DNA of 33,642 bases, from the NCBI GenBank assembly GCA_016194985.1, contig JACQAK010000110.1:1-33642 (forward strand). The letters run 5' to 3'. Shown piece after piece: positions 15,184-33,642 of the stretch. How positions within the stretch are numbered: the stretch's first letter is position 1; each line of letters opens with the position of its first letter. This DNA comes from Bacteroidota bacterium. GTDB taxonomy: Bacteria; Bacteroidota; Bacteroidia; B-17B0; Aurantibacillaceae. The notes below the pieces were generated by a model. The model did no database searches. It was not told where the DNA came from and saw only the letters and a list, made by a program, of their open reading frames with translations. The position numbers and the translations under genes are program-made.

Positions 15184-18100
15184 TTATCTAAATATCGTTA
15201 ATGGACTTGTATAAGCATTTGGATATGCCGGATGATTCAAATTAATGATATAATAGTATGTTCCCACCGGCAGATCTTTTCCTTTATACTGTCCGTTAAA
15301 CGGAACTGCATAGCCTTTCGAATAAAACAATCTTTCTCCCCAACGGTTATAAACCTCCACCTCACAATCAGGGAACTGATAAATAAAATCAATCTGCCAT
15401 ACATCGTTCTTACCGTCAGCATTAGGAGAGAATCCGTTAGGTATTGTAATTTCAGGATAAACTAATACAGTAACGGTATCCCAATTTGAGCAGCCATTTC
15501 CATCTACAACCGTTACAGTATACACTGTAGTAACAGTTGTGCCGGATGTTGGATTAGATCCTGCCGGATTATCCAGAGATGTAACAGGTGTCCAGCTATA
15601 GGTGCTTCCCGTTGGTCCGGTTGGATTACCGCCAATAGTTGCTGAAGATAAAAGCGGGATACTTACCATCGGCCCCGCATCTACATTTGGCAAGGCAAGA
15701 GATGTTACTGTTACCGAATCTCTGTCAATACAGGCGCCATTAGAAGCCACTAACACATAGGTACTGGTTCCGGTTGCAGGATTTACAGTTGTAATAAGCG
15801 TATTGGAAACAACTGTATTAGATGGCAATTCAAGCCATTGGTAATTGATACCTCCACTGGAGTTTGATCCATTTAACTGCAATGTTCCGTTTTGACAAAA
15901 CAGTGTATCGTTTCCTGCCACAGCGTTAACCGTTAATATCGAATTAATTCTAAATGATGAATCAATCGTACAACCAAAGTTATCTGTTAAGTTAATCGTG
16001 TAATTACCAATCGATAAATTTGATATATCTTCCGTGTTAAATGATCCAGGAGTCCAGGTATACGTGTATGGAGAAACGCCTCCGGAAACGGTAATATCGA
16101 TTGCTCCGTCTGACACCGTATTACAACTTGCATCTGTAATAGCAGCCGTCATTGTTAAGGTAGGAGGATTCGTTAACGAATATGATTCTGAAACAGGACA
16201 TCCGTTAGCATCACTTACCGTAACTGAATAAGCGCCTGAACATAATCCGTTAATAGTAGGAGTAGAAGGTTCTGTTGGTGTCCAGCTATAAGTATACGGC
16301 AATGTTCCTCCTATTGGAATAGTTGTTAATGACCCGTTACAGTTATTAGTACAGGTAGGGTTATCCAAATCAGGAGTACTAAACACTACCGGTGATATCG
16401 TATTTAAAGAGAAATTTGCAACAGCCTGACATCCCGCTGCATCTGTTACCATAACCGAATATACCCCGGCGCATAATCCGCTAACAACAGGTGCAGTTGC
16501 CCCATTCGACCATAGTGGTGTATAGCCCGGTGTGCCTGCAGAAATAGTAAGGCTTATTTTTCCATCGCAAATACCGTTACATGAAATGTCTTTTTTGGTA
16601 GAGGTAATCAAGGGGCCATTGATCGAATTAATGGCATACACCTGAGTTTGTGAGCAATTTCCATCTGATACCGTCAGTGTATAAATCCCCGGAGCCAAGT
16701 TGGTTACCGTTGCCGTGTTACCTGCTGGTAACCATGCATACGTATAAGTTCCGGTTCCTCCCGAAACATTAACTGTAATAGAGCCCGTACTGGATGTGCA
16801 GGAAGACTGGGTTACCTGTGGTGTGATGGTAAATGCCGTTGCGGCACCAATAACAACACTGGCAGTTCTGGAACAACCGTTGATATCTGTCATATTACAG
16901 AAATAAGTCCCGGCACAAAGTCCATTTAAAGTCTGTGATGAAGAACCATTGTGTACCCAATGATACGTAATAGGGCCGGTTCCTCCGATGGCAGTAACGG
17001 ATACCGTTCCATCGCAGGTTCCACCACAGGATACATCTGCAAATGTTACGGTTTCTCCCGTTATTGAAGAAGAGCTATTGATGATAACATTCGAATTAGA
17101 TTGACATCCATTACCATCGGTGATTTGAACCATATAAACACCGGCACACAAATTAGTAGCCGTATTACCCGTTTGATTATTTACACTCCATAAATAGGTG
17201 TATCCCGGCGTTCCTCCAATAGGATTGATAATGGCCGAACCATTGCATAAATCGCAACTTGGTTCAGTGATTGTAGGAGTAAATGTTATTTGAGCTGGGG
17301 ATGTAACTGCAGCCGGTAATGTATTAAAGCATCCGTTAGCATCTGTAATTGTTACAGAATATGTTCCGTTACATAACCCGATGGCTGAAGCTGAAGCCTG
17401 CCCAATTGGGTCGTTCCATGCATATGAATAGGGCGGCAAGCCTCCCGCTACATTAGTTGCTAATAATGTTCCGTTACAATTTCCAAAACATGTATTATTG
17501 GTGGCAAAAGTACTACTTGTAATGGTTGTAATGCTAGGAACAGTATATGTTGTTGCATATGTACAATTCAAATTATCTGTAATCACAATCGAAATTAGTC
17601 CAGGGCACAAGCCATTCACTGTTTGTGTTGTTGCACTGTTACTCCACGCATATGTATAAGTACCATTACCTCCGGTTGGATTCACAGAAATACTTCCGTT
17701 ACAATTCCCTGAGCAGGCGGCGCTCGTAATAATTTCGTTATCATCAATGAGTTGTGGCTCGCTGATGGTTACTGATTGAAAGAACAAACAATTATTGGCA
17801 TCTTCGATTTGTGCCGTATAAGATCCTGCGCATAAATTTGTAATAGTTGTAGCGGCCGAAACCGGATTGACCCAACTCAATGTATAAGGAGATGTTCCTC
17901 CCACAGGATTTGAAACATCCGCAGTACCATTACATAACCCATGACACGTTACGTTGGTAGATGTGATCGTAGCCCCGCTTGGCCCGTTCGAATTACTTAA
18001 AGGAATAGAAATAGTAGCCGAACAGGATGCGGCATCAGTGACAATAACCGTATAAACTCCGGCTCCCAAACTAGTAACCAATGAATTAGTAGCCTGAGCG

Positions 18101-21100
18101 CCCGGCACAGGTGGCAACCAATTGTAAGTATAAGGAGCTACTCCGGATGAGGCGGTTGCATTAATTGATCCATCATTAAATCCACAGGTAGCAGGAGTTA
18201 TCGCGGGATTCAAGGATATAGCCGGAGGATCAAGTAATGTAACTACCTGAACATTCTGACATAAATTTGCATCTGTTAATGTTAAAGTATAAGAACCCGC
18301 ACATAAATTGGTAACGGTTTGATTTAAATTAAGAGGGGTTTGCCATAAGTATGAGAAAGGTGCTGTTCCGCCAATTGGGTTAGCTGTAACAATACCATTA
18401 CATCCTGAATTACAGGTAGGATTCGTAAATGATATATTCGCAATCAATGCTGCAGGATCTGTTAATACAACCAAAGCCTGCCCTGTACATAAACTATCGT
18501 CTGTTACAATCACTGTGTAATTTCCGGCACATAATCCTGTAGGATTAGGAACAGGACCGCCGTTAGGTATCCAATTATAGCTATAGTTCGGATTACCGCC
18601 CGTTACTGTCGTTGCTACACTTCCGTTGCAGACAGCATTACATTTAGGATTACTAATAGTAGTAGTGACAATAATTGGTAAAGGCTCAGTGATATTAAAA
18701 TTATTGGAACTTACACAACCATTGGCATCAATGGCGCTACCCGTATATGTTCCTACACATAATCCTCCTATGGTTTGCGTAGGTGTAATAGGTGTTGTAT
18801 TATAGTTATAGGTATATGGAGCTGTTCCTCCGCTTGCATTAATAATAGCAGACCCATTACATTGCCCGTTACATTTCATATTCACCGAAGTGATCGTTGA
18901 AGTAAATACCGCCGGTTGTCCTATAGTTACTATTCCTGAAATGCTGCAGCCATTAGCATCCATAACGGTTACCGTATAATCGCCTGAACACAAATTCACC
19001 AGTGTATCTATATTAGCTCCTGCAAAAGATCCGAATGGAGTCCAGGTATAAGTATAAGGTCCTGTTCCTCCCCCTACTATAGCCCTCACGCCACCTGTAC
19101 AATTACCATTACACAACACATCTTTTTTATTAAAATTAAGTGTTAATGTTGCAGGCTGAGTTACAACAAAAGTATTTGTAATTAAACAGCCATTAGCATC
19201 TGCAATATCCACCGAATAACTTCCCGCACACAAATTAACCGGATCCTGGCCAGAACCACCGGAAGGGCTCCATGTATAACTATATGAAGGTATGCCGCCG
19301 GAAGGTGATAAATTAATGGATGCCGTGCATGCCGAGTTACAGGTTGCATTGGTCACCAAACCGGAAGACGTTAGTTGAGTGGGCTGAGCAATATTTACTG
19401 TTTGATTCGTAATACAATTATTAACGTCGGTAACAACAGGGATAAAAAGACCTGCACATAATCCTGTTACAACCGTATTGGTAGATGAAACCGGCGCAGG
19501 CCAGTTTACATTAAAAGGCCCTGAGCCTGAAATAGTAAGAGTAGCAGATCCTGTACATGATCCAAAGCAGGAAATAGAATTTGAAGTTACAGTAACAGTA
19601 GGTCCTGTAGGGTTGTTAAGCGTCGTAATAATTGTTTGGTTACAACCTGCAGCATCTATGACATTCAATGAATAAGTGCCGGCTGACAGATTGGTTAATG
19701 GGTTTGCAGAAGATCCGCCCGGTAACCAGGAAAGCGTGTATGTTGGTGTGCCTCCACTGATAGTCGCATTTATTGCGCCATTAGAGGAAGTACATGTTGT
19801 TGGATTGGTGAATGTAAAACTAGCTGTTAAAGAGTTGGCTTGAGTGATCGTAACGATTTGCGTTTGAGAGCAATTATTAGCATCTGTTGCTGTTACCGTA
19901 TAATCCCCCGGACACAGCCCATTGATAGAAGAGGTTGTTGCCCCTCCCGGTTGCCATTTATAAGAAATCGCACCGGTTCCTCCTGATGCATTGGCACTTG
20001 CAATACCATTACAAAGGCCATTACAGGTTACATTGGTTTGATTGACCGTTAAGGTAATTGCAGGTGGATTTACAAAATTTACGGTGCTGGTATTTGAACA
20101 GCCGTTTGCATCAGATACAACAACTGTATGTGTTCCCGCGCATAAATTAATTGCGGTTTGCGTATTTTGAACAGATGGTGTCCAGGTATAATTATAAGGA
20201 CCTATACCTCCCGAAGGATTAGCTGTTGCAATTCCCGAACAAACCCCGTTACATGTTAACGTGCTACCATTAGTTGTTGCCAATATAATAACTGTTTGAT
20301 TAATTTGAACCGTCTGAGTAGACGTACAACCTTTCGCATCTGTTACGATAACAGTTTGAACCCCTACGCAAAGATTATTTGCCGTTGGTGTGGTTTGTCC
20401 TCCCGGAGACCAGGAATAAGTATATGGTGCGGTTCCTCCGATGCCATTTGCTGTGGCCGAACCAATACAAACATTACAACTAGGTTGCACATTGCTTATA
20501 GACGCTGTTAATACTGCCGGCTGAGAAACGTTAGCTGCAACTGAAGCAATACATCCCTTGGAATCTGTAACGTTTGCCACGTAATTTCCTACACATAATC
20601 CACTGGCAGTAGCAGTAGTTTGAGCCGGTACCGAATTCCATGAATAAAAATATCCAGGAGTTCCGCCTGTTGGCGTAACCGTAACTATTCCATCGCATGA
20701 GCCTGCACAACTCACAGTTGCATTGGTAGCTGTTAATGTTATAGCAGGGGGTGTAACAATAGCCACCGTTTGTATTTTAGTACAGCCAAAGAAATCAGTG
20801 ACTGTTGCTGTATAAGTTCCCTGGCATAACCCGGAAATAATATTTCCTGTATTTCCATTATTCCAGTTAATGGCATAATTTGGGGTTCCACCACTCACCG
20901 AAGCTGTGGCAATACCTGTACATTGTGCGTTACAATTAGGATTTGTAGGAGTAATGCTTACAGTTAAATCAGGGGGAGCTGTAACCGTTGCCGTACCTAT
21001 TCCTTTACATCCATTGGCATCAGTAACCGTGGCTGTATGAACACCAACGCATTGATTGGTTAAAGAAGATCCTGTTCCTCCGGCACTCCACGTAAATGTA

Positions 21101-23667
21101 TAAAGCGGTGTACCTCCGTTTACAACAGTTGATATTGTAGCATTACATTGATTAAAACAATTAATAGGGGTAGTATTTAATGTAAGAATAATAGGATTAG
21201 GCTGGGTCAAATTAATTACCTGATTTTTTATACATCCTCTGGAATCTTTCACTATTAATGTATAAGAGCCGGCACATAAGTTCGTATAAGGAGGGTTTGA
21301 TGTAAGCGAACCGCTTGATGATTGAAGGGTAAATGTATAAGGTGTAGTTCCTCCTGAAGGATTAGAATTAATGGAGCCATTACATAATCCATTACATGTT
21401 GGTATAACAGAAGTGGCATTGGTTGTTATAGGGATAGGTTGAGTAATACTGACTGTATTCGTTATATTACACAAGTTAGCATCTGTTACTTTTAATGTAA
21501 ATGTTCCCGGACATAAATTGGTGATAGCTGCTGTACTTTGACCGGAAGGATTTCCAGGAGACCAGCTGTAAGTGTATGAGCCTGCTCCTCCACCCGGATT
21601 TCCGGCAGCTGTTCCATCGCAAGCGCCATTACAGGTAATACTGGTACTGGCAATCGTTAAGGTAAGAGCAGGAGGTTGTGTAATTGTAACCGTGTTTGTG
21701 AATTGACATCCTAAAAAGTCTGTGATCGTATAAACATAGGCACCGGCACATAAATTGGTTGCAATAGAACCTGATGATACTGCAGGAGTCCAGTTGTAGG
21801 TAAAGTTAGGAGTTCCTCCTGACGGATGTAAGTTAACAGATCCATTACACACAGCATTACATAATATGTTAGACTGAGTAGGACTAGCCGTTAATGTTGG
21901 AGGAGATAAAATTGCCACCGTAATTGTTTTTACACAATTTCCATTATTTGTAACTGTACAGGTATAATTTCCTGCACATAAGCCTGAAGCTGATGCTCCT
22001 GACCCTCCACTTGGTGCCCAGGAATACGAAAAGGCCCCAAGGCCACCTGTTGCAGTTACAGAAGCTGTCCCATTGCAGATACTACCACAATTCAAATCGG
22101 TTTTAGTAACCGTTAATGTAATAGCCGGAGGTTGAGTAATGTTAGCATTATAAACAGCTGTACAGGTTTTGCTATCGGTAACAGTCATCGTAACAATTCC
22201 GGGACATAAGTTAGCTATAGTAGCGGTTGTGGATGTAGAAGGGGTTGATGAAGCAGATAGCCATGAATAGGAATAGGGGCCAACACCACCCGTTGGAGCA
22301 ACTGTAGCTGATCCGTTGCAAGCTCCATTACAGGTCACATCTGTTGATGCACCATGTGGATTAATCAGCGCCGGTTGAGTCATTGTGGTTGTAAATGTTT
22401 TACTACAATTTTTACTGTCAGCTACTAAAAACGAATAAGTGCCTGCACATAAACCGGAAACCGAAGTTGTAGTAACAGCAGGAATGTTTGTATAAGTTGC
22501 AACCGTAGAACCCGACAATGCTGCAATCACAGAAATATTATATGGCGGCGAACCACCACTTGGGAAAATATTTAAAGCGCCGTCACAGTCACCAAAACAT
22601 CTGGGTTGTTTTAATCCCGAAAAAATAAGTCCCACAGAAGTCGGTGCCTGCGGAGTAGGCAATCCGTTTAATTGAGTAACAAATCCGCCGGCATCAAATA
22701 CAAATATATCCAATTGGCCATTACAGGAACAGATAGAATTTAGTGAATAAGTAGATGAGTTTATTCCGTTAGCACCACTGGGGAAACAACCCGAACTGTT
22801 ATTAAATAACATATCATATGGGCCTGTAGTACAGCTTGGATCAAAACCGATTGTTATGGAAGCGTCACAAGATCCCGCGCAAGAAGGGTTTGTAAAAGAA
22901 TAGGTAATAGTACATGCCTGGGGATTAGGATTTGTGTTAAAAATTTTCGGCTGCAAACCCAAATCAACTAAAGAATTTACTCGATACAAGGCGGGATTAT
23001 TTTTTTGAGCAATAACAATTAAATCGTTTGACTTAAAAGATACATTATCCTCTAAAACAATTCTATTCTTGATATATAAAACCGAGTGAATAGTTTTAAA
23101 AACTACTTTATCTGAAATGGCTTCAAGATTTCCGGCAATAATAGACGTATTGTTTAATGTATAATTGCCTTTATTGATTTTAAGTAAATAGTTGTCTGCT
23201 ACTTTAACTGATTGTAAATCCCAGTTTCCTTGCTCAAACAACACATCCGCTTTCACACTATTCTTGCAAAAATTAACGGTATGATTTTCTGAAGAACTAT
23301 TGGTGAAAACAAGCTTCGTATTTGCTTCAAAAAAGGTTTTCTCATTTAATATAAAATCCCCACCACAATTTAATGTCGACAGGTCACTTCCTCTGAAATA
23401 ATAATCGCTTTTAGTTTGGTTGAATTTGACAGATTTAATATGAATCAGTCCCGTTATATCAATCACCAATCCGTTAGAACTGGAATTGTCGTCAAAAACT
23501 AAATCAGTGCTCGGTGAAGGGCTCACTCCTACTGCTGTTCCACCGCTTGTATACGACCAATGATGTCCATCGTTTATATTTCCAGAGCCACCTACCCAAT
23601 ACAAGGTTTGTGATTTTGAAAAAAACGACAAAAATAAAGCGATAAAAAGTAGTAGCTTTTTGAACAT
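15184..23667 (-). CDS. Giant T9SS type B surface protein with about 30 SprB repeats
   Basis: This is a 2827-residue secreted protein. A signal peptide (residues 1-19) is followed by an N-terminal domain (about 20-240) starting YWVGGSGNINDGHHWSY, likely a beta-helix-type module. A degenerate repeat lies at about 250-345. Twenty-nine SprB-type repeats of about 77 residues follow (345-2579), typically T-C-N-G-x-C-N-G, GGTPxYTYSW, NLCAGTYTVTVTDANGC, and a QPPA-type linker. After them comes an Ig/PKD-like region (about 2580-2735), then the gliding-motility C-terminal domain (about 2740-2827: IPNGFSPNADGKNDVW ... VYNRWGERLF ... GTYYYIINL), a T9SS type B sorting signal. SprB of Flavobacterium is a cell-surface adhesin for gliding and has similar repeats; this may be its functional counterpart, but no motility role is proven here. 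The adjacent PorP/SprF gene supports T9SS export. Confidence 0.95.
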   Translation of the reverse strand: MFKKLLLFIALFLSFFSKSQTLYWVGGSGNINDGHHWSYTSGGTAVGVSPSPSTDLVFDDNSSSNGLVIDITGLIHIKSVKFNQTKSDYYFRGSDLSTLNCGGDFILNEKTFFEANTKLVFTNSSSENHTVNFCKNSVKADVLFEQGNWDLQSVKVADNYLLKINKGNYTLNNTSIIAGNLEAISDKVVFKTIHSVLYIKNRIVLEDNVSFKSNDLIVIAQKNNPALYRVNSLVDLGLQPKIFNTNPNPQACTITYSFTNPSCAGSCDASITIGFDPSCTTGPYDMLFNNSSGCFPSGANGINSSTYSLNSICSCNGQLDIFVFDAGGFVTQLNGLPTPQAPTSVGLIFSGLKQPRCFGDCDGALNIFPSGGSPPYNISVIAALSGSTVATYTNIPAVTTTSVSGLCAGTYSFLVADSKNCSKTFTTTMTQPALINPHGASTDVTCNGACNGSATVAPTGGVGPYSYSWLSASSTPSTSTTATIANLCPGIVTMTVTDSKTCTAVYNANITQPPAITLTVTKTDLNCGSICNGTASVTATGGLGAFSYSWAPSGGSGASASGLCAGNYTCTVTNNGNCVKTITVAILSPPTLTASPTQSNILCNAVCNGSVNLHPSGGTPNFTYNWTPAVSSGSIATNLCAGAYVYTITDFLGCQFTNTVTITQPPALTLTIASTSITCNGACDGTAAGNPGGGAGSYTYSWSPGNPSGQSTAAITNLCPGTFTLKVTDANLCNITNTVSITQPIPITTNATSVIPTCNGLCNGSINSNPSGGTTPYTFTLQSSSGSLTSNPPYTNLCAGSYTLIVKDSRGCIKNQVINLTQPNPIILTLNTTPINCFNQCNATISTVVNGGTPLYTFTWSAGGTGSSLTNQCVGVHTATVTDANGCKGIGTATVTAPPDLTVSITPTNPNCNAQCTGIATASVSGGTPNYAINWNNGNTGNIISGLCQGTYTATVTDFFGCTKIQTVAIVTPPAITLTATNATVSCAGSCDGIVTVTPTGGTPGYFYSWNSVPAQTTATASGLCVGNYVANVTDSKGCIASVAANVSQPAVLTASISNVQPSCNVCIGSATANGIGGTAPYTYSWSPGGQTTPTANNLCVGVQTVIVTDAKGCTSTQTVQINQTVIILATTNGSTLTCNGVCSGIATANPSGGIGPYNYTWTPSVQNTQTAINLCAGTHTVVVSDANGCSNTSTVNFVNPPAITLTVNQTNVTCNGLCNGIASANASGGTGAISYKWQPGGATTSSINGLCPGDYTVTATDANNCSQTQIVTITQANSLTASFTFTNPTTCTSSNGAINATISGGTPTYTLSWLPGGSSANPLTNLSAGTYSLNVIDAAGCNQTIITTLNNPTGPTVTVTSNSISCFGSCTGSATLTISGSGPFNVNWPAPVSSTNTVVTGLCAGLFIPVVTDVNNCITNQTVNIAQPTQLTSSGLVTNATCNSACTASINLSPSGGIPSYSYTWSPSGGSGQDPVNLCAGSYSVDIADANGCLITNTFVVTQPATLTLNFNKKDVLCNGNCTGGVRAIVGGGTGPYTYTWTPFGSFAGANIDTLVNLCSGDYTVTVMDANGCSISGIVTIGQPAVFTSTITSVNMKCNGQCNGSAIINASGGTAPYTYNYNTTPITPTQTIGGLCVGTYTGSAIDANGCVSSNNFNITEPLPIIVTTTISNPKCNAVCNGSVATTVTGGNPNYSYNWIPNGGPVPNPTGLCAGNYTVIVTDDSLCTGQALVVLTDPAALIANISFTNPTCNSGCNGIVTANPIGGTAPFSYLWQTPLNLNQTVTNLCAGSYTLTLTDANLCQNVQVVTLLDPPAISLNPAITPATCGFNDGSINATASSGVAPYTYNWLPPVPGAQATNSLVTSLGAGVYTVIVTDAASCSATISIPLSNSNGPSGATITSTNVTCHGLCNGTADVSNPVGGTSPYTLSWVNPVSAATTITNLCAGSYTAQIEDANNCLFFQSVTISEPQLIDDNEIITSAACSGNCNGSISVNPTGGNGTYTYAWSNSATTQTVNGLCPGLISIVITDNLNCTYATTYTVPSITTITSSTFATNNTCFGNCNGTLLATNVAGGLPPYSYAWNDPIGQASASAIGLCNGTYSVTITDANGCFNTLPAAVTSPAQITFTPTITEPSCDLCNGSAIINPIGGTPGYTYLWSVNNQTGNTATNLCAGVYMVQITDGNGCQSNSNVIINSSSSITGETVTFADVSCGGTCDGTVSVTAIGGTGPITYHWVHNGSSSQTLNGLCAGTYFCNMTDINGCSRTASVVIGAATAFTITPQVTQSSCTSSTGSITVNVSGGTGTYTYAWLPAGNTATVTNLAPGIYTLTVSDGNCSQTQVYAINSINGPLITSTKKDISCNGICDGKISLTISAGTPGYTPLWSNGATAPVVSGLCAGVYSVMVTDAAGCQAVANFSLNTISPVVFSTPDLDNPTCTNNCNGSLTTIPIGGTLPYTYSWTPTEPSTPTINGLCSGAYSVTVSDANGCPVSESYSLTNPPTLTMTAAITDASCNTVSDGAIDITVSGGVSPYTYTWTPGSFNTEDISNLSIGNYTINLTDNFGCTIDSSFRINSILTVNAVAGNDTLFCQNGTLQLNGSNSSGGINYQWLELPSNTVVSNTLITTVNPATGTSTYVLVASNGACIDRDSVTVTSLALPNVDAGPMVSIPLLSSATIGGNPTGPTGSTYSWTPVTSLDNPAGSNPTSGTTVTTVYTVTVVDGNGCSNWDTVTVLVYPEITIPNGFSPNADGKNDVWQIDFIYQFPDCEVEVYNRWGERLFYSKGYAVPFNGQYKGKDLPVGTYYYIINLNHPAYPNAYTSPLTIFR
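15931..22635 (-). repeat. Tandem array of 29 SprB-type coding repeats
   Basis: Repeats average about 77 codons (about 231 nt) and are diverged at the DNA level, so they are old rather than a recent expansion. Each has an invariant first Cys (before N-G) and last Cys (in T-D-x-x-G-C). Twenty-five also have a second Cys three residues after the first (two residues in repeats 10 and 24) and a third in the L-C-A-G motif. Repeats 13, 20, 26 and 29 lack both. Repeats are numbered from the N-terminus. Confidence 0.9.
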
Positions 23668-25774: not shown

Positions 25775-28387
25775 TTAAGACGTGCTTTTCAATTTATTGA
25801 TTCTCCGCCTTTCAATGATAGCAACAACTGTTCCTATGATCATTACCAAACATCCCAACCACAATACATTGATAAACGGAAACATATATGCTTCCAGCAC
25901 CACAAAATCTTTTACATTACTCACTTTTTCACTCATCTGAATCTCCACACTTCCTTCGTTAGGATATATTTTCCAAAAAATAAATTTCAATCCCAATTCT
26001 TTCAATTCAAATTCATCAGGCATGACCATGTTATGTTTTAAAATATACCGTGGTGTGGCTCTGTAAATATTTCCATTAATATCAGTAGCTTTTAAAACGG
26101 CTGTTACAATCAAAAGGCTATCATTTTTGGAATATTGTTCTTCGGTAAGATTTGTTGTAATACTATCAATTCTGATAATGGCATTATCCGAAAAAATAGT
26201 GTCGTTCATGTGTCCAACAAAATTAGTTGGTTCTTTATAGGCATCTTTTTTAATTGTTTTATCATCACTTAAAACTCCATACGTTACATGGGTATAAATA
26301 TCATTACTCAAAAAATGTTTGGTATCCGGATGCGATGCAGTTCCCATTCTTGGGTTATCCTGAATCATTGGACTCAGATCAAATGCTTTTACCAACTTTC
26401 CATTTTCATCCTTCGTAAAATAATCCATATTAAAGAACACATCAATCCCTCTGCGTTCTTTACCCGTATAGGTTACAAGATAATTTCCTATTGGTAAGGT
26501 ATCGCCTTTGGTAAGTACCAGACTCTTTTTGGCATCAAAGTTTTCGCCCAGACTCGCTACATTTTTTTGAGAAGTGTTTTGAGAGATCGTTTGTTTTTTG
26601 GAAGTAGAAATCAATGCTCCCAACAAAATCAATGCAAATCCGATATGAGCAATAGACGATCCTGCATGCCTTGTTTTTCCTTTTAAAATTCGCATCCAAT
26701 AATCCAGATTACAGAACACGGCAAACAATGCCGAAATAAACAACAAAGCATATGAAACGAGATTCCATTTGTCAATAGGGCTCGCAGACGAATACTCTTT
26801 TAAAAAGTATAATGGAATAACCGCCGACATCCCAAACACAACTGCTAATACACCTGATAATGCAATATGTTTCAGGAATTGCTTTGGATTTGTTTTTTTG
26901 TACTTAAAATATTGAGTTACCGCTACCAATAATAAGGCAATAATTGTAAAAGGCACCATCCACAAATTATAATCGGCAATCTTAATCGGCGCTTTTTCGT
27001 TTTCATATAACCACCCCTGAAATAATTTATTCATAACAGGTATAGATGTAAAATAGGTAATAATCAATGATGATAATAAAAACACCAGTGATCCCACAAA
27101 CATCCAAAACTCCCGCGAATAAAGACTTTCCTCTTCTTCTTCTTTTGGGAAAAATTTGATGTATGAATAGATCGTCATTAAAAAACTAATCACTATCCAG
27201 GTTAACAGTAATGCTACTTTATGGCCAAACGTGATTCCTGCAAACAACATTAAAAAGGAAACCATCAGATAAGAGACACGAATCAATTTATCATGTATTA
27301 ACAACACAACACAAATCAACACAAAGGTCAATACATATACTACCAGCTGTGCCTGCATTCCCAAATCGGTGAAAGCATGCACCGAACTTTTTCCTAAAAT
27401 ACCGCTTCGGGTTAAGAAGGTAGAATACAAGACTAATAAGAAAGAAGCGATCGCCATTAAATGTGTCATAAATAAGGAGCCGCCCTTGTTTTTATTAATG
27501 ATCATTACATGTCCTGCACCCACCATTACCAACCATGGCACCAGAGATGAATTTTCCACGGGGTCCCATGCCCAGAAGCCTCCAAAACTTAAGGCTTCAT
27601 AAGCCCATGCGCCACCCATTAAAATCCCGGTCCCTAAAATCATGATGCTGAAAAAGGTCCATGTTAACGCTGGCTTTTGCCAGGTAGTAAAATCACGTTT
27701 CCATAAACCGGCAACGGCAAATACAAAAGGCACCAGAGTAGATGAAAATCCTAAGAACAAGGTTGGCGGATGAATGGTCATCCAGTAGTTCATTAACAAA
27801 GGGTTTAATCCTCGCCCATCAATCTTGGCCAAATAATTTTCGATTTGCAAAAAAGGCAAGTTTGCATATTGCGGATTTTCTCTCAATAAAATAAAGGGGT
27901 TAGAGCCCAATTTATAATCGCCGAAATACACACCCAATAACATACTGGCGATAAACACCTGTACTAACGCAAAAATAGCCATGGTTGGCGCTTCCCATTT
28001 AGCGTCAATGGTTTTACGTAAAATATTTCCCAGCACCACATTCCAAAAAGCCCATAATAAAAAACTTCCTTCCTGTCCTTCCCAAAAACACGACATAATG
28101 TATTGCATGGGCATTTCGTTATTGCTATGCTGGTATACATAGGAATACTCATAAAAATGATTAAACAACATAAAGAACAGCGTTGCTGCAATACCAATAA
28201 TTGAAATAGAATGAATAGTGAATGCTGTTGACGCAAATTTTTTCCATTCAGACGTAAGTGTTTCTTTAGAGTAGAAATAATACCCAACAGCAGAAAGCAA
28301 GGCTGCCACTAAAGATAGAATAACAAATCCATTACCTAGCTGACCAATCCACAAGCGTTCTGCAATATATTCTGTTGTATGATTCAA
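25775..28387 (-). CDS. ccmF: Cytochrome c maturation protein CcmF (haem lyase)
   Basis: This 870-residue multi-spanning protein joins haem to apocytochrome c outside the inner membrane. The haem-handling WWD motif is at about residues 261-286 (WAYEALSFGGFWAWDPVENSS). Conserved histidines include H206 in MTIHPPTLFLG, and NHFYEYSYVYQHS (about residues 76-88) is also typical. About 12 membrane segments are visible, followed by a periplasmic region (about 620-845) and a final membrane segment. The length is longer than the usual Ccm type of about 650, because of the extended C-terminal periplasmic part. It starts 29 nt after ccmE and ends 10 nt before the DUF2520 gene. Confidence 0.93.
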   Translation of the reverse strand: MNHTTEYIAERLWIGQLGNGFVILSLVAALLSAVGYYFYSKETLTSEWKKFASTAFTIHSISIIGIAATLFFMLFNHFYEYSYVYQHSNNEMPMQYIMSCFWEGQEGSFLLWAFWNVVLGNILRKTIDAKWEAPTMAIFALVQVFIASMLLGVYFGDYKLGSNPFILLRENPQYANLPFLQIENYLAKIDGRGLNPLLMNYWMTIHPPTLFLGFSSTLVPFVFAVAGLWKRDFTTWQKPALTWTFFSIMILGTGILMGGAWAYEALSFGGFWAWDPVENSSLVPWLVMVGAGHVMIINKNKGGSLFMTHLMAIASFLLVLYSTFLTRSGILGKSSVHAFTDLGMQAQLVVYVLTFVLICVVLLIHDKLIRVSYLMVSFLMLFAGITFGHKVALLLTWIVISFLMTIYSYIKFFPKEEEEESLYSREFWMFVGSLVFLLSSLIITYFTSIPVMNKLFQGWLYENEKAPIKIADYNLWMVPFTIIALLLVAVTQYFKYKKTNPKQFLKHIALSGVLAVVFGMSAVIPLYFLKEYSSASPIDKWNLVSYALLFISALFAVFCNLDYWMRILKGKTRHAGSSIAHIGFALILLGALISTSKKQTISQNTSQKNVASLGENFDAKKSLVLTKGDTLPIGNYLVTYTGKERRGIDVFFNMDYFTKDENGKLVKAFDLSPMIQDNPRMGTASHPDTKHFLSNDIYTHVTYGVLSDDKTIKKDAYKEPTNFVGHMNDTIFSDNAIIRIDSITTNLTEEQYSKNDSLLIVTAVLKATDINGNIYRATPRYILKHNMVMPDEFELKELGLKFIFWKIYPNEGSVEIQMSEKVSNVKDFVVLEAYMFPFINVLWLGCLVMIIGTVVAIIERRRINKLKSTS

Positions 28388-28416
28388 TGATGTAAAATTA
28401 AGTACTGATGAATTGA

Positions 28417-28800
28417 TTAAACTTGAGGCTTGCCATCATTATATTTACTTGGGCATTTCATTAAAATTTCGTTGGCATGAAATTCTTCTCCCTGCATTTT
28501 TCCAATCAACACAATTTGTTCGGATTTCTGAATATCCTGCGGAACACTTTTATGAAGCACTACTTTTTTCTCAACACCTTTATTATCAACCATCATAAAT
28601 GAACACTCATCCGCATTGATCTTTGGATCATATTGCACAGGGATCGATTTATCCAATTTTCCTACAACGTGGTACTCAGTATCAGGATTACCCGCCGCTT
28701 CCGTAAAATCAGAATAGGTGGCACTACTTTGAAGTGATGTAAATATAACGCCTATTGCAACCGCAATAACAACTATACCTAATATGTGGATCTTTTTCAT
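28417..28800 (-). CDS. ccmE: CcmE haem chaperone, Cys-type (CxxxY)
   Basis: This 127-residue protein carries haem to CcmF. A single N-terminal membrane segment (about 5-22) is followed by an OB-fold (VVGKLDKSIPVQYDP, VVLHKSVPQDI, QIVLIGKMQGEEFHANEIL). The haem-binding motif is C116-P-S-K-Y120 in LMKCPSKYND. Classical CcmE proteins have HxxxY there. The Cys form (CxxxY) is the variant known from archaea, some deltaproteobacteria and others, and binds haem by Cys instead of His. The ATG overlaps the ccmD stop by 4 nt (ATGA), and ccmF follows after 29 nt. Confidence 0.9.
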   Translation of the reverse strand: MKKIHILGIVVIAVAIGVIFTSLQSSATYSDFTEAAGNPDTEYHVVGKLDKSIPVQYDPKINADECSFMMVDNKGVEKKVVLHKSVPQDIQKSEQIVLIGKMQGEEFHANEILMKCPSKYNDGKPQV

Positions 28801-29021
28801 TTTCTATTTTCTAATTTTTTCAGTTTCATATCGATGTATATCAAATAGCCGATAAGACAGATAAACACAATGGATATTACGGCTATAACAACATAGATCT
28901 TCCCGTCGCTTCTAAAAGCATCTGCCATTTGCGGCTCCGATGACATTTCCTGAGCAAGTCCTATAAACGGAAGTAACAGACTCGCCAGTAGTAAACTAAT
29001 TTTATGCTTCATTTTTTGCAT
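28797..29021 (-). CDS. ccmD: CcmD-like small membrane protein
   Basis: This is a 74-residue protein. A hydrophobic N-terminal stretch ending in GLAQ looks like a signal peptide. One membrane segment (about residues 43-62) is followed by DMKLKKLENRK, a short basic cytoplasmic end as in CcmD proteins. CcmD helps release holo-CcmE from the CcmABC complex. Position between ccmC (20-nt overlap) and ccmE (4-nt overlap) supports the call more than the sequence does. The ATG at 29012 is an alternative start. Confidence 0.75.
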   Translation of the reverse strand: MQKMKHKISLLLASLLLPFIGLAQEMSSEPQMADAFRSDGKIYVVIAVISIVFICLIGYLIYIDMKLKKLENRK

Positions 29022-29664
29022 GAGTTAAAAAGGTTAAACGTTTTTTGATATCCAATATCCAAAGGCTTAATAGCACCCAACCAATAACGGCAGGGTAAAA
29101 CACCAACCGCATATTATTATCCAGATCATATTTCCCGAAAGCAGGATTTCCACCATTTCCGGGATGCAACGAATCTGTTAAACGTGGTAAAATCATGATG
29201 AATACAAACATCATCACAAAGGCAAAAATATTGTATACAGCAGCAATACGTGCACGCTTCTGCTCATCATCAATAGAACTTCTTAAGATAAAATAAGCCA
29301 GATAAATTAATACCGCGATTGCCACACCATTTAATTTCGGATCTTCAAACGTCCACCATGTACCCCAGGTAAACTTGGCCCACATACAACCGGTTAGTAA
29401 GCCCGGAAGTGCAAAAAACAAACCTGTTTGTGCTGCCTGATTACTGATCATATCGGATTGTATATCATTTTTTGATAAATGTTTGATAGCGAACACCACC
29501 GACAATCCCATTTGAAATAACATGGCAAACCAAATAGGAACATGATAAAACAAATTACGGATAGTTTCGTATAAAATATTCAAATGAGGAACAGGGGTTA
29601 ACATTCCCCATACTAAGGTATAGAGAATTAATAATGCAGCTGTTATTTTCCACCACTTTATCAT
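29002..29664 (-). CDS. ccmC: Haem exporter protein CcmC
   Basis: This 220-residue protein of about six membrane segments belongs to the CcmC/CcsA haem-handling group. The Trp-rich haem motif is WAKFTWGTWWTFEDPKLN (residues 95-112), like the WWD region. Conserved histidines are H41 in FYHVPIW and the one in SLHPGNGGNPAF (about residue 173). CcmC loads haem onto CcmE. It begins 4 nt after the ccmB stop. Its last 20 nt overlap ccmD. Confidence 0.93.
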   Translation of the reverse strand: MIKWWKITAALLILYTLVWGMLTPVPHLNILYETIRNLFYHVPIWFAMLFQMGLSVVFAIKHLSKNDIQSDMISNQAAQTGLFFALPGLLTGCMWAKFTWGTWWTFEDPKLNGVAIAVLIYLAYFILRSSIDDEQKRARIAAVYNIFAFVMMFVFIMILPRLTDSLHPGNGGNPAFGKYDLDNNMRLVFYPAVIGWVLLSLWILDIKKRLTFLTHAKNEA

Positions 29665-29668
29665 GTCG

Positions 29669-30328
29669 TTATTCTTTCCAAAGGTAACTAAATAATAGCG
29701 TTGCCAAAGCTACCACTACAAAATTTAGCATGATTAATATTAGTAAATATTTATAGCTTACGCTCCAAGCCAAACCATCCATGGCATGTTTACTCAATTT
29801 TACAGACACCAGTAATAATGGCATCAATACAGGAAAACTCAAAATAGCCATTAAACTGATATTATTATTGGCCTTGGAGGCAATGGCACTCATTAAGCTC
29901 AAGACCCCCGAAAAAGCCGAAGAACTAAAAACCAATGCCAGCAAAAACATGCCCATATCCTGAACCATACTTCCCACAAACCAGGAATAAAAGAAAAATG
30001 TGAGCAGACTTAACAAAGTCATTAACAACATATTATAAATGATCTTACTGAGAATAAATTGTCGCGGGTGGTAGTACAGGTAATTATATAAGCCTTTGCC
30101 TTTGGTTTCCTGCATAAAACTTTTACCTGATACGTTAACGGCAATAAACATAAAAATAGTCCAGAATAAGGCATTCCAAACCGTTGGATGGATAATCTTC
30201 TTGAAACATAATGCTGAAATGAAGACTGTCGCCACTATATAAACCAAAATTCCGGCAAGAGTTGACTTTTGCCGGAATTCTAGTAAAAATTCTTTCTTAA
30301 TAAGTTGAGATAGTAATTGAGTCGTCAT
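29669..30328 (-). CDS. ccmB: Haem exporter permease CcmB
   Basis: This 219-residue protein has six predicted hydrophobic membrane segments and belongs to the CcmB family, the permease partner of the CcmA ATPase. The start MTTQLLSQLIKKEFLLEFRQK with the basic E-F-R-Q-K segment, LFWTIFMFIAVNVSGKSFMQE, and YHPRQFILSK are typical. It is the first gene of the ccm series. A promoter-like element ends 8 nt before the start. No ccmA is present in the window. Confidence 0.9.
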   Translation of the reverse strand: MTTQLLSQLIKKEFLLEFRQKSTLAGILVYIVATVFISALCFKKIIHPTVWNALFWTIFMFIAVNVSGKSFMQETKGKGLYNYLYYHPRQFILSKIIYNMLLMTLLSLLTFFFYSWFVGSMVQDMGMFLLALVFSSSAFSGVLSLMSAIASKANNNISLMAILSFPVLMPLLLVSVKLSKHAMDGLAWSVSYKYLLILIMLNFVVVALATLLFSYLWKE

Positions 30329-30369: not shown

Positions 30370-33300
30370 TTATCTTAACACTTGAACAAATCCATCATAT
30401 TTTTTATCGTCAGGCACTTCCAGAATATAAAAGAATGTACCATCATTCAATCCTTCTGCTTTCCATTCGTTTGCATAATTAGTGCTCGTAAACACTTTTT
30501 TACCCCATCTGTCAAATATGCTCAAGGTTGAGTTTGGATGATATTCTATATTCTTAATTTTAAAATAATCATTTGCTCCATCTCCATTTGGCGTGATAAT
30601 ATTAGGAACTTCAACAGCACAAGGAGGCAATACAGTTATAACCTGCAAATCGGAATCCGTAAAGCCACAACTATCAGTGCTGGTAATCATATATACATAT
30701 GTTCCTTCTGTTGACGGAGCTGATATATTTAATGAAGATGAAGTCGAAATTGAATTCACATCAGGGAAAAGGGTCCAATTGTATGAATAGGAAGGTTTTC
30801 CTCCTGACGTCATCGTATTTAAGACTAAGGCTGTATTAGCACAAATAGCCGCTGAATCAACAATAGACACATTGATATCAGACGCATAATTAGTAACAAC
30901 AACACTGGCTGTAGCAGGGCTGGCACAAGTACCATTTACTGTCACCACAAATGTAGTGGTAACCGGAGTAGAAGTAACATATATGGAATTTGTACTCACC
31001 CCAACAGCCGGAGACCAGCTATATGAATAAGGTTGCGCCGGTGATGATGCCACATTAGCCGTTAATGTAACTGTACCATTTGCACATTTGTTAACATTAG
31101 CCATTGGTGCTATAGATAAATTTAACAAGCCACTCACGGCTACGCTGGCCGTATAAGTAGTAATTGGAGCACTACATGCCCCCTGAGCCTGTAAAGTATA
31201 AATATTCGTTCCAACAACCGCTGTATTAAATGTAACCGGACTATTTACCGAATTTGATATTGTTCCGTTATTATAGCTTATTGTATACGTTGCTAATGAA
31301 GACGGCGAAGAACCATTTGCCGTTAAGGTAACCGGTGTACCCACACAAACTACTGTTGGTGTAGCTACTAAAGTCGCGTTCGTGGTTCCCTGACGGATAT
31401 AGACTGTATTTGTAAATGCTGTCACCGGACCACTACAAGGACCTTCTGCAATTAAGGTATACGTATGAACTCCGAATACAGGATTAGATGTTGATGCCGG
31501 AGCAAAAGTTGCCGGAGCATTTACAGATACCTGGGAATTTCCATTTCCATCCACATAAGCAATCGTATAAGATGCCAACGATCCCAAAGCACTCAATGTA
31601 AGGTTACTACCCGGACAAAGTGTATCCGCTGAAAGCGATAAAGTACCCTGAGTGACTCCCTGAACCACATTAATTGTATTGGTAAAGGAAGCTAATGGCG
31701 CACCACATGGCCCAATAGCATTAAGCGTATATGTATACATACCAATAGTTGACGGAGCATTAAATGTTACCGGGCTAACTGTTGTGGTTTGTAAACCCGA
31801 TCCATCAACATATTGAATAGTATATGATGTTAGAGCTCCCTGAGCGGTTAATGTTACAGGTTGTCCTAAACAAACAGACGAATTATTTACCGCTAAAGTA
31901 CCTTGTGTCATACCCTGTGCCGTCGTTAAACAGATAACTGTGTCTTTAGCACAAGAACCAATAGGATTGATCAATGATACTGTATAGCAAGTTACACCGG
32001 CAGTTCCCGGTAATGGAAATTTAATAGAATCATGTGCTGTTGGAACAACAACTCCTGTTGAAGGTGTTACGACAACAGTAAACTGAGAACCTGACTGTTT
32101 AGCCAAACAGTTACCAAAAACAATATTAGGTCTTGTGGAGCTTGTTCCGCTTGTATTAGAACCACCACATAAAGAACCACTACCGGAATCATAGTCTCCC
32201 ACCACTGATGTAAATGGGGTAATTGAGCAAACTGCCTGGCTATTTGAAGGTATCCCGGATGTTACGCCATGACATACATCAATTAATATATTGGATGTTC
32301 CATCCCATAAATAAGGTTGGTTAAAATTCAATGTATTTAATCCCAGGTTAATAGTTGTATTTGCCTGATAAACAAGGCTTAACCCTGAATTATCAAATGA
32401 ACTTACTGAGTTAGCCGAAGTACATTTAATTTTAACTGTAAAACCAGGATATAATGTTTCCGTACTTAATGTTGCCAGGTTAATTCCGATACTTGATAAT
32501 TTCCCTGGTTGAACTCCTGCAGCAATTAATTCGGATGCTTTATATAAATACTGATGATGGCTGCTTTCCCAGAAACTCACAAAAGGATTTATAGTAGATG
32601 AAGTACCATTTGTTGAACCGGTTCCAACCAAAATAGTATTAGTAACCACACATGGAGAATTAGCTAACCCACAGGATGCACCAGCGGAACCTCCAAAATT
32701 GATAGCAATTCTTGCACTATCTGTTGAAACACAAAATACGGAACCATACATGGCATTGGCAGGCGTAAGCGTATAAACAGGGGTTTCGTTTATTGTAACC
32801 GTTGTTGAAGCTGCGGACACACAACCATACTGATTGGTTACCGTAACGGAATAAACGCCTGCATTTACATTCACTGTAGGCGATGTTGTAGAACTTAAAG
32901 TGCCAGATGGCGTTGACCAAGCATATGTATGAGGACCCTGGTTCGCCGGGTTTAATGTATTTGTTGCGGTTAAAACAGTTCCTGGACCACCATTGCAATA
33001 GCTTAATATACCACTTATATTAGCAACAGGTACCGGGTTAATATTAATATCACCAATAATCGTTTTTGAACATTGTCCGGAAGTTAGGGTAACAAATATC
33101 AATGAATCAGATGCAACAAAAGTTGTAAAGGTTGTACTGGCATTTACATTACCATTACTCCATAAATACGAATCCGGTGTGCCTCCACTAACAGATACAC
33201 TGGCCGTTACAACCCCACCAGGGCAAGCTCCAAGTGTTGGCGTTACAACAATAGATCCATTTAAATTATTAACAGAAACCTGATCTACATAAACAGTTAC

Positions 33301-33642
33301 CTGTTGTCCGTTTGTTAAAGCCGGTACACCATCATCTGTAGCTGAAATAGAAATTGTATGATACCCAGCAGGTGCAGTACTACCATCTATAATAATGTAA
33401 ATATCTGTACCCCCGTTAGGATTAATGGATGTTGAAAAAGAGAAAGAAGAGCCCAATGTTGGGGCGCTTGCTGTAACAGTCACTGTTTGTCCGGCTTCAG
33501 GTCCTAAAAAAGTATTTTTTATAAATATCGTATCATTACCACATACTTTTACTGAATCACAATAGCCCAATAAGGCCGATACCGGCTCGAAATTAGACCC
33601 GGCCGCTGGGCACAGGTCAAAGAAGAATTTTTTTCCATTCAG
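30370..33642 (-). CDS. Large T9SS type B surface protein, 5' end cut by window edge
   Basis: The frame is open through the right edge, so 1090 residues of a longer protein are visible (an internal TTG at 33570 is not the start). Regions, in visible numbering: a beta-sandwich segment (about 35-125) with Ig-like repeats, two further Ig-like domains (about 125-290), and a Bacteroidota surface module (about 335-515) with LVGTGST ... SSHHQYLYKASELIAAG. Three tandem repeats of about 85 residues follow (about 580-840). Then come Ig-like domains and the gliding-motility C-terminal domain (about 1012-1090: VPNIITPNGDGANDYFK, FDRWGKKVF, GTFFYILEV). The last part is a T9SS type B sorting signal. No PorP/SprF partner is next to it in the window. 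It ends 41 nt before ccmB. Confidence 0.92.
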   Translation of the reverse strand: MNGKKFFFDLCPAAGSNFEPVSALLGYCDSVKVCGNDTIFIKNTFLGPEAGQTVTVTASAPTLGSSFSFSTSINPNGGTDIYIIIDGSTAPAGYHTISISATDDGVPALTNGQQVTVYVDQVSVNNLNGSIVVTPTLGACPGGVVTASVSVSGGTPDSYLWSNGNVNASTTFTTFVASDSLIFVTLTSGQCSKTIIGDININPVPVANISGILSYCNGGPGTVLTATNTLNPANQGPHTYAWSTPSGTLSSTTSPTVNVNAGVYSVTVTNQYGCVSAASTTVTINETPVYTLTPANAMYGSVFCVSTDSARIAINFGGSAGASCGLANSPCVVTNTILVGTGSTNGTSSTINPFVSFWESSHHQYLYKASELIAAGVQPGKLSSIGINLATLSTETLYPGFTVKIKCTSANSVSSFDNSGLSLVYQANTTINLGLNTLNFNQPYLWDGTSNILIDVCHGVTSGIPSNSQAVCSITPFTSVVGDYDSGSGSLCGGSNTSGTSSTRPNIVFGNCLAKQSGSQFTVVVTPSTGVVVPTAHDSIKFPLPGTAGVTCYTVSLINPIGSCAKDTVICLTTAQGMTQGTLAVNNSSVCLGQPVTLTAQGALTSYTIQYVDGSGLQTTTVSPVTFNAPSTIGMYTYTLNAIGPCGAPLASFTNTINVVQGVTQGTLSLSADTLCPGSNLTLSALGSLASYTIAYVDGNGNSQVSVNAPATFAPASTSNPVFGVHTYTLIAEGPCSGPVTAFTNTVYIRQGTTNATLVATPTVVCVGTPVTLTANGSSPSSLATYTISYNNGTISNSVNSPVTFNTAVVGTNIYTLQAQGACSAPITTYTASVAVSGLLNLSIAPMANVNKCANGTVTLTANVASSPAQPYSYSWSPAVGVSTNSIYVTSTPVTTTFVVTVNGTCASPATASVVVTNYASDINVSIVDSAAICANTALVLNTMTSGGKPSYSYNWTLFPDVNSISTSSSLNISAPSTEGTYVYMITSTDSCGFTDSDLQVITVLPPCAVEVPNIITPNGDGANDYFKIKNIEYHPNSTLSIFDRWGKKVFTSTNYANEWKAEGLNDGTFFYILEVPDDKKYDGFVQVLR

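Follow-up and report, generated by a model that had tools for sequence, protein, structure and literature searches.

SprB of Flavobacterium johnsoniae, which combines repeats of the family PF13573 with a type B T9SS signal and has a PorP/SprF-family gene adjacent, is the natural point of comparison for the protein considered here. The repeats, the type B signals and SprF have all been described before. For the cysteines of SprB repeats, no description was found in the literature searched, among the matches listed, where the only disulfide paper of relevance dealt with SprF and GldK (PMC12635249). Isopeptide-locked pili are known covalently locked structures. Stalks of tandem Ig-like domains also occur in animals, in NCAM and the IgLON proteins, the disulfides of which lie inside one domain, between its two sheets. 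A further relative is GhpA, the grappling hook protein of Aureispira (PDB 9flp, 9flv, 9flw and others), on the structures of which no paper was found in the literature searched, among the matches listed.

The window, a stretch of 33,642 nucleotides from a Bacteroidota genome, contains a gene for a giant T9SS type B protein of this repeat family, P0001 (15184..23667, reverse strand, as are all features of the stalk gene given below), of 2827 aa with 123 Cys. Its non-repeat N-terminal domain of the YWVGGSGN..HWS type (residues 1-257; 22897..23667) was used as the query of the orthologue search. A degenerate first repeat, r01 (residues 260-353; 22609..22890), carries C1, C2, a C3-like Cys and further Cys, without C4. 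The array proper, r02-r30 (15907..22608), comprises 29 SprB repeats of 73-89 aa, and Pfam PF13573 matches P0001 in 28 stretches with 555 bits at a cut-off of 28. Two domains with approximate borders follow: the Ig-like r31 (15679..15906), with C1 at C2591 and C4 at C2646, and the last domain before the C-terminal signal (15454..15678), with the C4-like C2726 and without C1. The C-terminus (15187..15453) matches the CHU_C / TIGR04131 profiles of the type B signal with E values of 7.9e-22 and 1.1e-14. Among the best 80 of 543 related proteins, most are from uncultured Bacteroidia MAGs (e.g. UBA5697, UBA4416); Salibacter halophilus and Crocinitomix algicola have proteins with related C-termini.

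The gene next downstream of the stalk gene encodes P0002 (14258..15181, reverse strand), a PorP/SprF-family protein of 307 aa without Cys (PF11751, E 2.2e-84), and thus a PorP/SprF-like neighbour as found beside type B cargo. By analogy with the type B cargo and shuttles of F. johnsoniae, as the accessible part of PMC12618676 presents them, P0002 is probably the outer-membrane shuttle or anchor of the stalk. The SprF of F. johnsoniae forms a bond with GldK through twin cysteines in its C-terminal tail, according to the accessible part of PMC12635249; P0002 has none, and in this it differs from the partner of a SprB adhesin proper. Attachment of this stalk to the gliding track through a bond of the SprF-GldK type is improbable.

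Repeats r02-r30 correspond to repeats 1-29 of the earlier note, which had claimed that the second and third cysteines are gained or lost together. Translation and segmentation bear this out: 25 of the 29 repeats have C1-C2-C3-C4, four have C1 and C4 only, and none is mixed. The two-Cys repeats are those named before (13, 20, 26 and 29 of the array), namely r14 (19579..19803), r21 (17956..18195), r27 (16591..16809) and r30 (15907..16134). The same note had placed C2 where other repeats have D or N; this was wrong, as C2 (profile column 7) immediately precedes the D/N (column 8) in C-N-G-x-C-N-G. C3 and C4 are 14 residues apart in all 25 four-Cys repeats, and C1 and C2 are four apart in 23 and three in the other two. 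Under free assortment the pattern of 25, 4 and 0 has a chance of 1/C(29,4) = 4.2e-5. By eye, r14, r21 and r27 have in common a one-residue-shorter loop and a ..GP.. linker after the repeat. They look related, so the four two-Cys repeats are not four independent events and the window alone is weak evidence. A fifth Cys is present at column 46, in strand F, in r04 and r26. The coupling of columns 13 and 46 suggests that it faces the core, and it is probably a buried free cysteine.

The orthologue search by the N-terminal domain gave a match in 51 of the 61 genomes of the order, own genome included; 49 of these have one match each. The set used comprises 47 of the 50 other matching genomes (loci L114-L160; G097 and G117, with short open frames, and G125, with five matches, were left out) and the window protein, 48 in total. 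C2 and C3 agree in 1477 of the 1488 repeats in which all four columns are covered (1112 both, 365 neither, 10 C2-only, 1 C3-only). Of the 11 exceptions, nine fall in the degenerate first repeat, the one in L157 is explained by a shift of one residue, and the one in L137 is real. No column pair scores above C2-C3 by MI (z 22.6; the next pair has 9.4) or by DCA (38.8).

In the giant surface proteins of the class the SprB repeat is a very common module, found in 133 of the 149 genomes of a class sample; in a phylum sample it was found in 16 of 80 (the window's genome is included in both). The loci taken from these samples, 51 from 14 phylum-sample genomes and 40 from 39 class-sample genomes, and those of a hold-out sample, were hand-picked from the best-scoring matches listed and are not a random draw of repeats. 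The four-Cys form is present in 25 of the 40 class loci. Many single-Cys homologues would have spoken against a C2-C3 bond. Few were seen: of the 4404 distinct repeats pooled over all sets, orthologues included, 1936 have both cysteines, 2414 neither, 41 C2 only and 13 C3 only, and a part of these 54 singles are shifted cysteines or belong to other domain types. Genuine C3-only repeats were recognised by eye in L137, L222, L324, L321, L311, L313 and L312 (two repeats, residues 676 and 1562) and genuine C2-only repeats in L203 (two repeats); the C2-only repeats of L060 and L061 have an additional Cys in or near the linker. In the window's own genome, 136 repeat matches, among them the 25 four-Cys repeats of the window, comprise 33 CCCC, 82 CxxC, 1 CCxC, 1 CCCx and 19 other or incomplete forms, and in the single CCxC the C3 is shifted.

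Exactly 29 callable repeats are present in 26 of the 48 orthologues. The 22 without this number were left out of the tree, as were four of the 26 in which the degenerate first repeat had been counted, putting them out of register; the tree of the remaining 22 was built from the non-repeat flanks. The length of the array is strikingly constant, with the same 29 callable repeats in register in 22 of the 48 orthologues, window included. Identity to the window protein at the same position is 0.55-0.71 in close relatives, and 0.40-0.48 in distant ones vs 0.31-0.34 off the diagonal, so that positional homology is firm for close relatives and weaker for distant ones. On this tree, parsimony requires at least 23 joint changes of C2 and C3, and no mixed repeat occurs in the 22 proteins, which makes this a clean case of two cysteines switching together. 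The C2-C3 pair is absent at array positions 13, 26 and 29 in all 22 orthologues and at position 20 in 17 of them. Joint presence and absence, the top covariation and the joint changes strongly support the earlier proposal that C2 and C3 form a disulfide within the repeat, which is very probably correct.

Covariation between neighbouring domains was mapped by mean-field DCA on 3884 neighbour pairs (Neff 2920). Non-Cys couplings within the repeat outline the arrangement of strands: C with F (24-46, 22-48), F with G (43-61, 45-59, 47-57) and B with F (13-46). The pair V13-V46 has the same offset as the pair 7-40, and strands B and F are thus parallel. C2 and C3 appear to start strands B and F at one pole of the domain, the lower one, with C4 at the opposite pole. 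Couplings that do not involve cysteines are also seen at the lower pole (N4-A67, V1-I62), and the linker couples to the neighbourhood of C1 (4-67, 4-64). Towards the next domain, strand A, at column 70 of repeat i, packs on columns 48' and 56' of repeat i+1 as judged from the couplings, and the linker couples weakly to the next FG turn (P65-N52' and A67-A56', both 2.2). An AlphaFold2 model of r10-r12 is confidently all-beta (pLDDT 88.8, pTM 0.65), and its Foldseek neighbours are Ig-like tandems.

GhpA gives the best Foldseek matches (top E 1.4e-7) and is also the best profile match of a three-repeat alignment (E 2.7e-7, ~23% identity). Within the aligned residues 1206-1391, successive GhpA domains carry one Cys close to where strand B begins and another at the FG turn, and no C3-like Cys is present. 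The NCAM and IgLON stalks are neighbours by fold only (Foldseek); their bonds are intradomain, whereas one kind of bond in P0001 appears to cross from domain to domain.

The partner of C1 was sought by co-occurrence in the phylum and class samples under a strict reading of the columns. C1 of repeat i and C4 of repeat i+1 go together: 1111 neighbour pairs have both, 3 C1 only, 38 C4 only and 23 neither (phi 0.56). For C4(i) with C1(i+1) the counts are 1061/72/30/12 (phi 0.16). Permutation within chains gave a mean agreement of 1081 and a maximum of 1099 for C1(i)/C4(i+1), and none of 2000 permutations reached the 1134 observed. By DCA, C1(i)-C4(i+1) scores 7.3 and ranks second of 5776 inter-domain column pairs, below the same-column pair W26-W26'; C4(i)-C1(i+1) has some signal at 3.2. 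As C1 and C4 are near-invariant, the evidence is carried by a minority of arrays. One example is L217, which reads 'oC CC Co oC Co oC CC CC CC Co' when written as C4/C1 per domain, each C1 being closed by the next C4. L058, L062 and L085 are bracketed in the same way, and so are L083 and L066, which resemble each other; L066 has one exception.

A first broad table had contained 51 C4-only pairs in the phylum sample, of which 24 are left without partial alignments. The 41 exceptions of the strict count (phylum and class) were inspected by eye. In 19 of them C1 is shifted; a C1 shifted to about the C2 column is seen in L089, L198, L201, L227 and L210. In another 18 a Cys of the same domain at the end of strand G replaces C1 (L061, L060, L054, L090, L086, L196, L195), a place that adjoins C1 on the covariation map (N4-A67, N4-Q64). 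The rest are two shifted C4, one unreadable X (L219) and one rewired case (L099).

A widened rule, devised after the exceptions had been seen, allows such shifted or substitute cysteines and accounts for most of the exceptions; for some domain types it takes a Cys at the C2 column to be the one of the lower pole. Over the phylum, class and hold-out samples it gives 1563 pairs with both, 3 lower-only, 7 upper-only and 23 with neither for C1(i)/C4(i+1), compared with 1666/45/56/2 in the same repeat and 1494/45/32/10 for C4(i) with C1(i+1). The hold-out sample (20 loci), untouched by the making of the rule, gives 430/0/3/1, of low power with its one double loss; the 38 previously unseen chains of 62 give 727/0/1/0, likewise of low power with no double loss. 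These untouched samples are consistent with C1(i)-C4(i+1) and add little power.

The ends of the arrays were counted in chains of at least four domains, the remainder being not callable. The first domain has both C1 and C4 in 200 chains, C1 only in 28 and C4 only in 2; the genome_contigs set, in part the same as the orthologue set, contributed 7 of these 28. The last domain has both in 218 chains, C4 only in 23 and C1 only in none. The window has the same arrangement, with C1 and no C4 in its first repeat and C4 and no C1 in its last domain before the C-terminal signal, the latter as in 18 of 18 listed proteins. This is what bonds between domains lead one to expect, since a first domain can then do without C4 and a last one without C1.

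The earlier note implied that C1 and C4 pair inside one repeat, which would put both disulfides, C1(i)-C4(i) and C2(i)-C3(i), within the same domain. All four cysteines do lie in one sequence repeat and are present together in most orthologue repeats, and in the class sample alone C1 and C4 of the same repeat are weakly positively associated (phi 0.07 strict, 0.12 widened). Over phylum and class, however, they show no positive association (1150 both, 47 C1-only, 87 C4-only, 2 neither; phi -0.02), their DCA score is only 1.0-1.5, the array ends and the bracketed arrays speak against the pairing, and the Ig-like topology suggested by the couplings would put them at opposite poles. Pairing within one repeat was rejected on co-loss, array ends and DCA, by all of which C1 follows C4(i+1), and we regard it as unlikely. 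It is probable that C1(i) forms a disulfide with C4(i+1), from one domain to the next.

Taken with the secretion signal, these pairings suggest with good probability that P0001 forms a surface stalk of the T9SS type B kind, in which C2(i)-C3(i) and C1(i)-C4(i+1) disulfides hold about 32 Ig-like domains in tandem. The oxidation of the cysteines, the geometry and the mechanical role of the stalk are what we infer here. C2(i)-C3(i) would tie strand B to strand F where both begin, at the lower pole of one domain, and C1(i), also at the lower pole, would bond with C4(i+1) in the FG turn at the upper pole of the next. With both bonds in place, a continuous path would lead from C4 along strand F to C3, across the bond to C2, over three residues to C1 and across the second bond to C4 of the next domain. 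Strand F would be linked to the next strand F, and the whole stalk would be one covalent cable. The shortest covalent path would amount to about 18 residues per domain vs about 77, and a fully oxidised stalk would hardly be able to unfold or stretch. The earlier estimate of about 54 disulfides comes close in total, as the Cys positions allow 31 inter-domain bonds and 25 within repeats, about 56 by count; that all of them lie within repeats is not supported, as about half would be inter-domain.

In repeats without C2-C3 the path would be about 50 residues (48-54 in the window), and such repeats might serve as extensible links. Array positions 13, 20, 26 and 29 would be such weaker links, all but the first of them lying in the half of the array with the C-terminal anchor. 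The wider proposal, that SprB-type repeats are generally joined by C1(i)-C4(i+1), that C2-C3 completes the F-strand cable and that repeats without this staple are programmed extensible links, is tentative and somewhat short of an even chance. Compared with SprB, P0001 adds the C2-C3 pair, a contrast that rests on giant arrays sampled in the family of genome G021 (C2-C3 in 0 of 564 domains, C2 alone in 6) and not on the F. johnsoniae SprB sequence. If the model is true, the surface stalks of Bacteroidota would possess a mechanical device that matches the isopeptide-locked pili, with disulfides in the role of the isopeptide bonds. Should neighbouring domains be linked by disulfides, models of the flexibility of such stalks, of their unfolding under load and of their export must change.

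The cysteines might instead be paired for the binding of metal or as reversible thiols, rather than as stable disulfides. What favours this is the result of the oxidase search, in which the window's own genome (94% complete), rich as it is in probable disulfides, yielded neither VKOR nor DsbB, and a search of 13 genomes of the genus, the own one among them, found no VKOR. The set searched for was VKOR, DsbB and Thioredoxin_4; DsbB and Thioredoxin_4 were searched in the own genome only, where Thioredoxin_4 gave one weak match. The proposed bonds would interleave along the chain, and their formation would have to take place in the periplasm or after export. Against metal binding or reversible thiols, the T9SS signal indicates that P0001 is probably outside the cell, and cysteines have been gained in twos at several other places that are coupled on the covariation map, namely at columns 12-35 and 45-59, where the coupling may stem partly from those cysteines themselves. 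Counted over distinct repeats of the pooled sets, the 12-35 columns have both cysteines in 35 repeats and a single one in 3, and the 45-59 columns have both in 12 and a single one in 4. Pairing for metal or as reversible thiols is therefore considered highly improbable.

None of the 35 repeats with the 12-35 pair carries C2 or C3; examples are L138 (residue 1331), L143 (residue 1323) and L009 (residue 2406). It is probable from this pattern that some two-Cys repeats carry a different staple, 12-35, in place of C2-C3. At array position 13, where C2-C3 is absent throughout the tree, 8 of the 22 orthologues have the 12-35 pair, which weakens the idea of an extensible link at this position in those species. 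The window's own r14 is without it.

Co-variation of C2 and C3 could also arise with no bond at all, through the copying of whole repeats by duplication or gene conversion, as the common loop type and linker of r14, r21 and r27 and the tendency of neighbouring repeats towards the same C2-C3 state (pooled sets) would suggest; this explanation is the least probable of the three, as in 12 of 33 flip rows the identity to the same position of a relative in the opposite state is at least 0.1 above that to any same-state repeat of the own protein. The clearest of these is position 21 of L129/L138, which is 0.81 identical vs 0.35, evidently the same repeat with both cysteines exchanged. Two further flip cases were seen by eye between the paralogues L009 and L010 of the window's own genome. 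The remaining 21 rows do not tell copying from joint exchange. Whole-repeat gene conversion as the sole cause was rejected on the 12 rows.

Genes for cytochrome c maturation are located near the stalk gene (window 25775-30328). Their products are CcmB, a CcmC-like protein (Cytochrom_C_asm) and a CcmF protein whose ResB-like end scores below the cut-off. At 30370-33642 lies a second type B protein of the T9SS, its frame reaching the edge of the window, and it contains CHU_C, a PKD-like domain and two weak SprB-like domains. The size that proteins with SprB repeats may attain is illustrated by another genome of the class, in which an open frame of 11129 aa with such repeats was observed (G162:C34).
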